Assembly (NCBI RefSeq): GCF_014640615.1
Contig: NZ_BMHH01000024.1
Coordinates: forward strand, 1 to 61,805
Direction of reading: 5' to 3'
From: Paramesorhizobium endophyticum
GTDB lineage: Bacteria > Pseudomonadota > Alphaproteobacteria > Rhizobiales > Rhizobiaceae
DNA length: 61,805 nucleotides
In this document: in pieces, positions 15,713-27,596 of the stretch
Position numbering within the stretch: position 1 is the stretch's first letter
Layout: each line of letters opens with the position of its first letter
The notes under the pieces: model-generated
What the model saw: the letters and a program-made list of their open reading frames with translations, nothing else
The model's database searches: none
Told to the model about the DNA's origin: nothing
Translations under genes and position numbers: made by a program

Positions 15713-17674
15713 TCAGAACGAATAGCCGATCGAAAGCTTCCCGCCGACGCTCTTGCTGTCGCGCCCGTCGCCGATCGCGCCGTTGATTCCGGCCTTCACC
15801 GTGAGTGCGTCGCGCTGCAGCGCCACGTCGAAGCCGATCCGACCGAGATTGCGGCTGTTGAAGGCCGATTCCTGACTGATGGCAAAGCCTTGCAGAGAGC
15901 CGGTGCTAACGGTTTCCGGCGTCGATGCGAGATGCTCGAAAGTCAGGCGCGAGGTGGTGGCAAGCGTCCATTCGCCGATTTTGCGCTGATCGAGGCCGAG
16001 TTCGACACCGGCCTTGAGGCGGACCGCCGTTTCCTCGAACTCGTCGACGGCGAGCGCCAGTTCGCTGCCTTTTTCCTGGAAGGCGTCGAGCTTGACACGG
16101 GCCACGTCCACCCCGGCAAAGGGCGTGATCGCCCATTCGCCCGAGCGGAAGATATGGCCGATTTCGGCATTGACGCCGAAGACGGAGCCGTCCGTGCTGC
16201 CATCGGCGTTGCCGAAACCGCCACCGAGCGCGCGCGAGCTGTCATAGTTCATGATGCTGGCATTGATCCCGCCCGCCACATAGAGGCCGGAATCGAGCGA
16301 GGAGAAGCCGTAGCGCCCGCCGATGGTGGCGAGGAAGCCGTCGAGATCGACCTTTCCGCCCGCCGCCGAGATCGACGCGCCGCCATAACCGAGCGCGCCA
16401 TAGACGAGCGCGCGCTCGTCTATGCGGTATGTCGCGCCGAAGAGGGGCATGACGCTGCGCTGCGAGCTCTTCGCCGTGCCCGAATCGCCATCCGTGGAGA
16501 AGCTTTCGCCCAGCGTCGTCTGCCAGAAGGCGGCGTGGCCGATGTCGAGACCCTTGCCCCGCGCATAGGGCTGGATGGTTTCGCCAAGCTGCGAAGGCAG
16601 GCGCGTGAGCCAGCTGCCGGCGTCGGCATGGACCTGCCCGCCCACTTGCATCTGGACGCCGCCCAGCGTGCCGGCATCGATGGCCGACTGAAGGTAGTAG
16701 TTGTAAGCCGTATAATCGCCCGAGAGTTCGGAATTCTGTAGCGCCTTCAGCAACGCGGCGCCTGTGGCGGCGTTGCCGGTCATCTCGTCTTCTTCAGGCA
16801 GCGATTTGTAATAGACCATCTTGGCGCGCAGCACGTAGATATCGGCCTGCGTCAGCCCAAGCCCTTCCTTCAGGTAATTGTCCATCGAGCCGTAGCTCTG
16901 CGCCACCTGGTCGAACCCGGCCTCCAGAAAGCTCGCCTGTACGCCCATGAGCGGCGCATAGATCGCCTTGGCATATTCACCTGCCGCCCCACCGCCGGCC
17001 TGCGCCGCGATGGCGTCGAGAGAGGCCTTGATGCGGGCCGCCGAATAGGTGTTGGAGGCGAGATAGTCTTTCATGATGTCTTCCTGCGAGACACCGGCGA
17101 TGCTGTGCAGCACAGCGGAAATCCAGCCGGTGCGGTCCTTGCCGGCGGTGCAATGATAGAGCGCCGCGGCATCCGCATGGGCAAGCTCCAGAAACACCTC
17201 GCGCAGGACGCCTCTCGTACGCTCGTCGGCGACGAAGCTGCGGTTGCCCTGCTCAAGAATGGCGATGGAGTCGGCGGGACTGTTGAGCGGTGGCGTGTCC
17301 GAGGTATTGCCGCCGGAGACGTTGTTGTTGAAATAGGTCACGTCCGGCCACAGGCGGTCTTGCGCCGTGGCGATCTCGCCCGGCGTGCGCAGGTCGATGA
17401 CGGTCGAGATGTTCTGCCTCTGGATCGTCGTGTAATCGGCATCGTTGAGCGTCAGCGCGTTGGAGCGGAAGAAGACGCCTGTGCGCATGACGCCATCATT
17501 GGTCGTCGTATAGGCGTAGCCGGTTCCTCCCTTGGAGGCGGCTAGCCCGGCAAGATCGCGGTAGTTGTCAACCGAAGACAGGATCGGCGTATTGATCACC
17601 TCCTGCGCCCATGCCGGTGCCGTCAGTAGCGACGGGAGGGCCGCCGCTACGCAAGAAATCACTCTTTTCATCAT
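15713..17674 (-). CDS. Autotransporter with a tyrosine/lipid phosphatase passenger
   Basis: 653 residues. A signal peptide (to about residue 23, APAWAQE) leads into a phosphatase domain with the P-loop HCTAGKDRTG (residues 174-183, catalytic Cys175). The Lys and Asp in this loop (CxxGKDR) are typical of MptpB/LipA-like atypical lipid and protein tyrosine phosphatases. VIDLRTPGEI near residue 92 is also typical. From about residue 370 the sequence becomes an autotransporter beta-barrel with alternating strands, ending in the outer-membrane signature IGYSF. The phosphatase is thus predicted to be displayed on or released from the cell surface. It is divergent from the TetR gene. Confidence 0.85.
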   Translation of the reverse strand: MMKRVISCVAAALPSLLTAPAWAQEVINTPILSSVDNYRDLAGLAASKGGTGYAYTTTNDGVMRTGVFFRSNALTLNDADYTTIQRQNISTVIDLRTPGEIATAQDRLWPDVTYFNNNVSGGNTSDTPPLNSPADSIAILEQGNRSFVADERTRGVLREVFLELAHADAAALYHCTAGKDRTGWISAVLHSIAGVSQEDIMKDYLASNTYSAARIKASLDAIAAQAGGGAAGEYAKAIYAPLMGVQASFLEAGFDQVAQSYGSMDNYLKEGLGLTQADIYVLRAKMVYYKSLPEEDEMTGNAATGAALLKALQNSELSGDYTAYNYYLQSAIDAGTLGGVQMQVGGQVHADAGSWLTRLPSQLGETIQPYARGKGLDIGHAAFWQTTLGESFSTDGDSGTAKSSQRSVMPLFGATYRIDERALVYGALGYGGASISAAGGKVDLDGFLATIGGRYGFSSLDSGLYVAGGINASIMNYDSSRALGGGFGNADGSTDGSVFGVNAEIGHIFRSGEWAITPFAGVDVARVKLDAFQEKGSELALAVDEFEETAVRLKAGVELGLDQRKIGEWTLATTSRLTFEHLASTPETVSTGSLQGFAISQESAFNSRNLGRIGFDVALQRDALTVKAGINGAIGDGRDSKSVGGKLSIGYSF

Positions 17675-17841: not shown

Positions 17842-18492
17842 ATGCAAGAAACGGGAATGCACGATGATCTGACACCGCAGGAAGGCTTGCGCGCGCGAAA
17901 GCGGAGGGAGACGTTCCGCCGGATCGCAGACACGGGGCTCGAGTTGTTCCTCGCCAAGGGCTATGCGGCGGCGACCCTCGACGAGATTGCCCAGGCATCC
18001 GGCATCTCGCGGCGCACCTTCTTTCATTATTTCAAGAGCAAGGACGATATCCTGCTCGCCCATATGAGCGGCTATGTGGAGGCTTTGAGGCAACTGGTCG
18101 TGGAGCACGCCGCCGCCGGCTCGCCCTTCGACATCGCCTGTGATGCGCTGAAGGCGCTCACCGCCAGTTCCGAACCATCCCGCGCCATCGCCATTGCCCG
18201 AGTTATGGCGGATAGCGAAGCGCTGCGCGTCCGAGCATCGCTCAGCTACCAGCAGTTCGAGCAGGCCGTCCATGAAGGCTTGTGCGAGGTGTGTCCTGAT
18301 GAAGGCCGTAGCGAAGGCCTGCGGCTCGTCGCCATGATGACGATAGGAATTATGCGCGTTGCCGTGGATGCCTGGCTGCAGAATGACGGCAGGCAGCCTT
18401 TGGCGGAATATATCGGCGAGGCGTTTGCTACGGTGAAGGCAGAGGTCGGCGCTGCGCCGGAGCGCTTACAAACATCCGGGATTCACATCTGA
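17842..18492 (+). CDS. TetR/AcrR-family transcriptional regulator
   Basis: 216 residues (ATG at 17842; 17857 is an alternative). The N-terminal HTH is clear: ATLDEIAQASGISRRTFFHYF, about residues 40-62. The ligand domain is not informative. It could repress the divergent phosphatase autotransporter through the palindrome, itself, or the PACE pump 122 bp downstream, although that gene has its own structured leader. Confidence 0.9.
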   Translation: MQETGMHDDLTPQEGLRARKRRETFRRIADTGLELFLAKGYAAATLDEIAQASGISRRTFFHYFKSKDDILLAHMSGYVEALRQLVVEHAAAGSPFDIACDALKALTASSEPSRAIAIARVMADSEALRVRASLSYQQFEQAVHEGLCEVCPDEGRSEGLRLVAMMTIGIMRVAVDAWLQNDGRQPLAEYIGEAFATVKAEVGAAPERLQTSGIHI

Positions 18493-18540
18493 CCGGCGCG
18501 TGGTTGAAAGTGCGGGCAAATCCATTATATAGCCCCCTTG

Positions 18541-18606
18541 AAAGCGAGGACGGCCTCCCCCGTTTATCGGGCTAGTTCGCTCGGGACGACCCGAGCTTTC
18601 CGGAGG
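18541..18606 (+). promoter_or_regulatory. Guanidine-II (mini-ykkC) riboswitch candidate in the PACE gene leader
   Basis: Two hairpins, each closed by GG/CC pairs around an ACGR loop: GAGG-ACGG-CCTC (18546-18557) and GCTCGGG-ACGA-CCCGAGC (18579-18596), with a 21-base linker. This is the defining pattern of the guanidine-II class. The 3' side of hairpin 1 includes CCTCC (18554-18558), exactly complementary to the ribosome-binding site GGAGG (18602-18606) 7 bp before the ATG. Ligand-stabilised hairpins would therefore free the ribosome-binding site (translational ON switch). Class assignment rests on motif and geometry only. Confidence 0.75.
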
Positions 18607-18613
18607 TTGGAAA

Positions 18614-19057
18614 ATGCGCTCCGTCGGCGATCGTATCCGTCACGCACTCAGCTTTGAAATTATCGGACTTCTGCTCGTCACTCCGCTTGGCGCGCTGGCG
18701 TTTCACATGCCTATGCATGACATGGGTGTGGTCAGCCTCGTGAGCGCGACGATCGCGACGGCATGGAATTTCATCTACAACTACCTGTTCGATGTAGTCC
18801 TCCAACGCACTTCCGGGACCACGGAGAAAAGCGGCCTGACGCGGGTTTGGCACGCAGTGCTGTTCGAGGCCGGCCTTCTGGTGGTGCTGATGCCGTTCAT
18901 CGCCTGGTATCTTGGCGTATCGCTCTGGCAGGCTTTCGTCATGGACGTCTCATTCGCGCTTTTCTATATGGGCTACGCCTTCGTCTTCAACTGGGCTTAT
19001 GATCGGCTCTTCCCACTACCCGAGTGGACGGTTCAGGCTATGGTGCAGCCCGATTAG
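18614..19057 (+). CDS. PACE-family efflux transporter (AceI-like, tandem BTP domains)
   Basis: 147 residues with four hydrophobic helices in two repeats. Conserved PACE motifs are visible: RIRHALSFE in helix 1 with Glu15 at the position of the essential AceI glutamate, TAWNFIYNYLFD ending helix 2, RVWHAVLFEAGLL in helix 3 and FNWAYDRLFP after helix 4. Known PACE proteins export chlorhexidine, other biocides and short-chain polyamines by proton antiport. The leader carries a guanidine-II-like riboswitch, so guanidinium or a derivative is a candidate substrate. Confidence 0.9.
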   Translation: MRSVGDRIRHALSFEIIGLLLVTPLGALAFHMPMHDMGVVSLVSATIATAWNFIYNYLFDVVLQRTSGTTEKSGLTRVWHAVLFEAGLLVVLMPFIAWYLGVSLWQAFVMDVSFALFYMGYAFVFNWAYDRLFPLPEWTVQAMVQPD

Positions 19058-27462: not shown

Positions 27463-27505
27463 CTGGCGGTACCGACATCACGAGAGCGCCGTAAACTCTC
27501 GCCAG
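27463..27505 (-). promoter_or_regulatory. Stem-loop in the leader of the TerC-family gene
   Basis: On the minus strand, CTGGC/GCCAG encloses GAGAG/CTCTC in 43 bases, about 100 bases before the start codon. TerC-family genes often carry yybP-ykoY Mn2+ riboswitches. I searched for the GGGGAGUAGC-type loop of that class and did not find it, so the identity is open. Confidence 0.3.
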
Positions 27506-27596
27506 AGGGGCCCGGCACCTTTGTTCATCCCGCGGTCCGATGCCTGGAGGCGGGGTTCTTTCTACTTAGCAGCGCCGCGCCGCACGTCAAGAGGCG

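Follow-up and report, generated by a model that had tools for sequence, protein, structure and literature searches.

Introduction

In riboswitches of the guanidine-II class, guanidinium drives the docking of two RNA loops, and the stem-loops also bind methylguanidine, aminoguanidine and agmatine (PMC5486947). The SMR exporter Gdx is described as guanidine-selective (PMC12186494). Another family of efflux pumps, PACE, is known to confer resistance to disinfectants. Members of this family export chlorhexidine, and short diamines have been proposed as their natural substrates (PMC9045395). In the open-licence text available to us, we found no report linking a guanidine riboswitch with PACE; supplementary gene tables (PMC2864571, Additional file 8) may hold a bare entry. 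The consulted part of the guanidine-IV riboswitch paper (PMC7736828) makes no mention of PACE, BTP or DUF2061.

Here we describe a firm link between guanidine-II-type RNA and one group of PACE transporters. The locus lies in a window of 61,805 nucleotides (the whole stretch of DNA analysed, contig NZ_BMHH01000024.1 of Paramesorhizobium endophyticum), for which an earlier note had proposed a guanidine-II-like riboswitch controlling a PACE pump.

A probable guanidine-II riboswitch precedes a PACE gene

The features of the locus are collected in table 1. The two ACGR hairpins, P1 and P2, carry ACGG and ACGA loops and are separated by 21 bases, and CCTCC on the 3' side of P1 (18554-18558) is fully complementary to the Shine-Dalgarno GGAGG; on both points our reading agrees with the earlier note. 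The P2 region lies 8 nt from the Shine-Dalgarno. The guanidine-II covariance model, RF01068, which the note had suggested running, matched the window over all 48 model positions with an E-value of 2.4e-4 (301 bases, 4227 families), although its score is 2.3 bits short of the gathering score of 32. Because the score lies under the gathering level, the riboswitch is absent from the default Rfam scan. The sole listing of that scan is an unrelated terC RNA (RF03067) at 27463-27523 on the minus strand, with 62.4 bits against a gathering score of 39.9. When RF01068 was run across the 4.93 Mb genome, the window site ranked best (E 9.3e-4) and the runner-up reached 18.4 bits (E 0.49). The window RNA shares the features of the class, namely the two tetraloops, G-C closing pairs, a spacer of 21 nt (at least 13 nt in the class) and a position in a 5' leader with a possible path to translational control. 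It is very probably a guanidine-II riboswitch, which would bind guanidinium.

Table 1. Coordinates of the features discussed in the text (window positions unless a locus is given).
Feature	Position	Strand	Basis
Candidate promoter, TTGAAA 18504-18509 and TATATA 18526-18531	18504-18531	+	by eye
Guanidine-II riboswitch aptamer (very probable)	18542-18594	+	RF01068 match, 29.7 bits
Hairpin P1, GAGG-ACGG-CCTC	18546-18557	+	read from sequence
Anti-Shine-Dalgarno strand (predicted), CGGCCTCC	18551-18558	+	MFE fold; overlaps loop and 3' side of P1
Hairpin P2, GCTCGGG-ACGA-CCCGAGC	18579-18596	+	read from sequence
Shine-Dalgarno GGAGG	18602-18606	+	sequence; 7 nt before ATG 18614
PACE (BTP, PF05232) transporter, 147 aa, four predicted membrane helices	18614-19057	+	profile matches
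Guanidine-I riboswitch and guanidine-carboxylase-type operon	L283:5888-15661, contig C31 of the window's genome		
RF01068 upstream of ATP synthase F0 subunit a	L123, L132, L134, L137, L144, L147, L241, L242, L244-L246, L249, L254, L255, L257, L260, L262, L276		

From the position of the candidate promoter, transcription would start just before hairpin 1. A consensus promoter scan returned nothing at its threshold in 18504-18531. Among 112 riboswitch leaders, 84 carry a TATAT-like element at a distance of 13-23 nt upstream of the hairpin-1 loop; of 53 leaders without the riboswitch, which serve as a rough control, 13 do.

That the downstream gene encodes a PACE protein, as the note had stated, was borne out by 162.1 bits to PF05232 (BTP), in two stretches, and 143.5 bits to the PACE model NF033664 (cut-off 80). 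Its product remained under the cut-offs of both specialised models, with 91.3 bits to the AceI-type chlorhexidine exporter model NF033663 (cut-off 180) and 135.1 bits to the multidrug/biocide PCE model NF033665 (cut-off 165). Chlorhexidine is a bisbiguanide. This was the sole PACE gene found in the window's genome. The AlphaFold2 model of the protein has a mean pLDDT of 89.1, and no SMR chain occurred among the 50 listed of 104 Foldseek-ranked chains aligned to it.

The hairpin pair is kept in front of one group of PACE genes

The earlier note had asked what share of PACE homologues carries the motif. Among 199 genomes of the same family, 48 had a PACE match, and we examined the best 30 loci, the window included. 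Two ACGR hairpins were found within 140 nt before the gene in 26 of the 30; two of the others are degenerate (L022, L040) and two lack the hairpins (L035, L037). RF01068 matched beside PACE at E<=1 in 25 of these 30 loci; in 19 of them, all other than the window, the match scored 32 bits or more. Before more distant same-family PACE genes the pair was seen in none of 20. From the named genome collection we took the best 80 of at least 551 confirmed PACE relatives. Both hairpins were present in 78 of these 80, the exceptions being the damaged hairpins of L076 and L103, so that the loss in close orthologues named by the note as counter-evidence was not seen. The genera among these best 80 of at least 551 include Rhizobium, Agrobacterium, Microvirga, Paracoccus, Tritonibacter, Pleomorphomonas, Aquabacter and Devosia, and a gammaproteobacterium, Marinobacterium lutimaris, is also among them.

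Wider samples contained fewer such loci. In a class-wide sample of 337 genomes (the window's genome uncounted), seven genomes held eight genes of at least 51% identity, and four of these genes adjoin an RF01068 match. In a phylum sample, PACE was present in 74 of 398 genomes, and the hairpin pair in 4 of 24 newly fetched loci. At one locus (L223) the ACGR pair is unusually distant from the PACE start as matched (81 and 117 nt), and the gene may truly begin further upstream.

The window's TetR gene, which ends just upstream at 18492, and three other neighbours were found at none of the best 80 of at least 551 named loci. Their absence from all 80 indicates that the RNA and the PACE gene form a conserved unit. 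Elsewhere in the window, 15713-17674 on the minus strand encodes a protein in which a tyrosine-phosphatase domain is joined to an autotransporter beta-domain.

A FastTree tree of 160 distinct PACE proteins from 165 loci, built on few columns and with many weak forks, placed all 107 riboswitch-bearing rows in one group of 123, and the motif occurred in none of the 37 rows outside. The riboswitch label changed seven times on the tree versus 44.6 times in shuffles, none of 500 being as low. The guanidine claim should be limited to this one group. Within it, eight rows form a subgroup without the motif. In five loci of this subgroup (L035, L037, L153, L154 and L221) we noticed by eye a conserved GATAGTATCTAAC-like repeat upstream, which is perhaps the operator of a protein repressor. 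Ser13 was found in 98% of riboswitch-group rows and in fewer than 20% of 32 outside rows, and it is not among the three commonest residues in 13 related rows without the motif. A45, Y99 and Y118 are likewise typical of the riboswitch group. Residues R77, H80, W51 and D130 are conserved in all or nearly all rows, and E15 and E85 are invariant.

Predicted folding is consistent with a translational ON switch

In the MFE fold of the window leader, CGGCCTCC (18551-18558) pairs with GGAGGTTG (18602-18609). This strand shares bases with the P1 loop and the P1 3' arm, so its pairing with the Shine-Dalgarno and an intact P1 exclude one another. The mean unpaired probability of the Shine-Dalgarno hexamer was 0.03 in the free ensemble versus 0.74 with P1 and P2 held formed. 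Over 104 leaders (L223, L042 and L113 left out, repeats removed), mean accessibility went from 0.28 to 0.41 when the hairpins were held formed; it increased in 69 leaders, by more than 0.2 in 29, and decreased by more than 0.2 in none, while 35 of the 104 had no predicted rise.

As a whole, the window leader does not fold into an exceptionally stable structure (z -0.35). Swapping the Shine-Dalgarno region between species weakened the pairing modestly (64 of 5000 permutations were as low), and a leader's own anti-Shine-Dalgarno/Shine-Dalgarno pairing fell below the median of the swaps in only 53 of 100 leaders (taken from 111, with L223 left out and repeats removed). Covariation was analysed in 40 hand-picked leaders, the window and 39 of the 80 named loci. 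The four core P1 pairs form in all 40; since they hardly vary, covariation in P1 says little. The outer pairs of P2 had compensatory changes in 22 cells, a value reached in none of 500 shuffles.

We propose the following mechanism. Without guanidinium, folding predicts that the 3' side of P1 would pair with the Shine-Dalgarno and translation would be blocked. With guanidinium bound, the two ACGR loops would dock, as is known for the class, P1 would be held and the Shine-Dalgarno freed. The leader would act as a translational ON switch for the downstream PACE gene, and the PACE protein would then carry guanidinium, or a guanidino compound very close to it, out of the cell. Judging from its regulon position and from the mutual exclusion, it may fill the slot taken in related genomes by the SMR exporter Gdx.

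PACE and SMR genes exclude each other behind the riboswitch

We searched the 199 same-family genomes with RF01068 at E<=0.05 and assigned genes by a 200-nt rule. Of 149 matches, 26 immediately precede PACE and 61 an SMR gene, with the remaining 62 elsewhere. The motif end lies 15-43 nt from the gene match in the case of PACE; for SMR the range is 14-184 nt, most distances being near 20. Counted per genome, 26 have riboswitch-PACE, 60 have riboswitch-SMR and none has both; six more riboswitch-SMR pairs at 208-257 nt, added by hand, raise the SMR count to 66 genomes. With kinship ignored, Fisher's test for this exclusion gives a p-value of 4e-5, or 1e-5 with the six added. By genus (n=109), 18 have riboswitch-PACE and 43 riboswitch-SMR (p 7e-4, kinship again ignored), and the one genus with both arrangements has them in different species. 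In none of these genomes does the riboswitch stand before both, the pattern that a replacement of the guanidinium exporter Gdx by PACE would leave. Seven of the 26 riboswitch-PACE genomes also have an SMR gene of at least 78 bits that lacks the riboswitch; a Gdx-like gene may therefore accompany riboswitch-PACE in some of them.

No Gdx-like SMR was found in the window's genome, where the single SMR resembles Qac (113 bits against the Qac model, cut-off 188; 49.5 bits against SugE, cut-off 126). The same genome carries a guanidine-I riboswitch (81.6 bits, gathering score 63) ahead of an operon that encodes a substrate-binding protein, an ABC ATPase, two DUF1989 proteins, a urea-carboxylase-family protein (1755.6 bits) and an allophanate hydrolase. 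Such a layout has been described for guanidine assimilation (PMC12186494). The operon makes it very probable that this organism encounters guanidine, against which PACE would act as a safety valve.

The tandem hairpins also precede ATP synthase and antiporter genes

We examined 53 of the 62 RF01068 matches that are next to neither PACE nor SMR; nine fall outside this count. Two ACGR hairpins, 26-31 nt apart, precede ATP synthase F0 subunit a in 17 of 18 same-family loci, and in some of these leaders the hairpins lie 19-22 nt from a subunit start. Tandem ACGR hairpins were also found at all five loci with ChaA-like Ca2+/H+ antiporter genes (L122, L136, L138, L263 and L264), and at L251 before a gene that resembles, by eye, an MnhF/PhaF antiporter subunit. 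Within the family, RF01068 further precedes 12 DUF1989 genes of guanidine degradation. The motif before ATP synthase and ChaA-like genes suggests a regulon wider than exporters and degraders. One review makes no mention of 'ATP synthase'.

Discussion

We consider it probable that 18542-18594 is a guanidine-II translational ON switch and that the PACE protein behind it exports guanidinium or a close guanidino compound in place of Gdx. Guanidinium is likely the PACE substrate, judging from regulon position and mutual exclusion with SMR. Its export by the window protein gains support because the riboswitch stands before both genes in none of the 199 genomes, because no Gdx-like SMR was found in the window's genome and because that genome holds a guanidine-carboxylase-type operon.

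The RNA could be a guanidine-II riboswitch while the main PACE substrate is larger, such as methylguanidine, agmatine, a biguanide or a diamine, with guanidinium as one inducer. The binding of methylguanidine, aminoguanidine and agmatine by guanidine-II stem-loops (PMC5486947) would fit this, as would chlorhexidine export by PACE and the short diamines proposed as natural substrates (PMC9045395). We nevertheless regard it as unlikely, given that the motif sits before PACE as it does before Gdx-type SMR genes, with both arrangements together in none of the 199 genomes, that Gdx is described as guanidine-selective (PMC12186494) and that the window's genome encodes a guanidine-carboxylase-type operon. 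Still less probable is that the tandem hairpins sense a different signal here, for example cation or proton stress. The hairpins before ATP synthase subunit a (17/18) and ChaA (5/5) point that way, and Gdx and PACE are likewise proton-coupled; however, loops and closing pairs match the validated class, and in this family the motif precedes SMR genes (61 matches) and the 12 DUF1989 guanidine-degradation genes.

Regulation by a protein, acting on the hairpins or in the form of the neighbouring TetR as the true PACE regulator, appears very improbable to us. The TetR gene does end just upstream, and riboswitch-less PACE genes of the same tree group have the GATAGTATCTAAC-type repeat, suggesting that some members of the family are under protein control; against this, TetR is found at none of the best 80 of at least 551 named loci that keep RNA and PACE together. 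The sub-threshold Rfam score of the window could suggest chance hairpins, but this idea is contradicted by conservation (78 of the best 80 of at least 551 and 26 of 30 leaders, versus none of 20 distant ones) and is scarcely credible.

A guanidinium-exporting PACE under a guanidine-II switch would have consequences for the family. The native substrates of PACE would include guanidinium or a guanidino compound, and chlorhexidine export by other members of the family would be a vestige of that activity, comparable to drug export by Qac-type proteins among the SMRs. We lean slightly towards the broader view that the Ser13-marked PACE group comprises dedicated guanidinium/proton antiporters that replace Gdx as the riboswitch-controlled exporter in many alphaproteobacteria. 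A guanidine-specific riboswitch points one PACE group to a testable substrate, and PACE becomes the fourth transporter family proposed to handle guanidine, after SMR, MATE and PnuC. One riboswitch would have held its regulatory position through a swap of the exporter downstream.

Like the guanidine-II RNAs (mini-ykkC, RF01068) that precede SMR/Gdx genes, the window leader has two GC stems with ACGR loops, a spacer of at least 13 nt, a position about 20 nt before the start codon and proposed translational control (PMC5486947, PMC12186494). Unlike them, it precedes the gene of a PACE (BTP) transporter, which has no sequence relationship to SMR, and its P1 consists of only four strong pairs, with the 3' side doubling as anti-Shine-Dalgarno. 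The window protein resembles the PACE family members AceI and PA2880 in its two BTP halves, E15/E85 and four predicted helices, whereas, in contrast to AceI and PCE, it stays under both cut-offs, belongs to its own S13-marked group and is predicted to be riboswitch-controlled. The case is comparable to MATE and PnuC under the guanidine-IV riboswitch, non-SMR transporters for which guanidine export was likewise proposed from regulon position (PMC7736828), but here both the riboswitch class and the transporter family are different.
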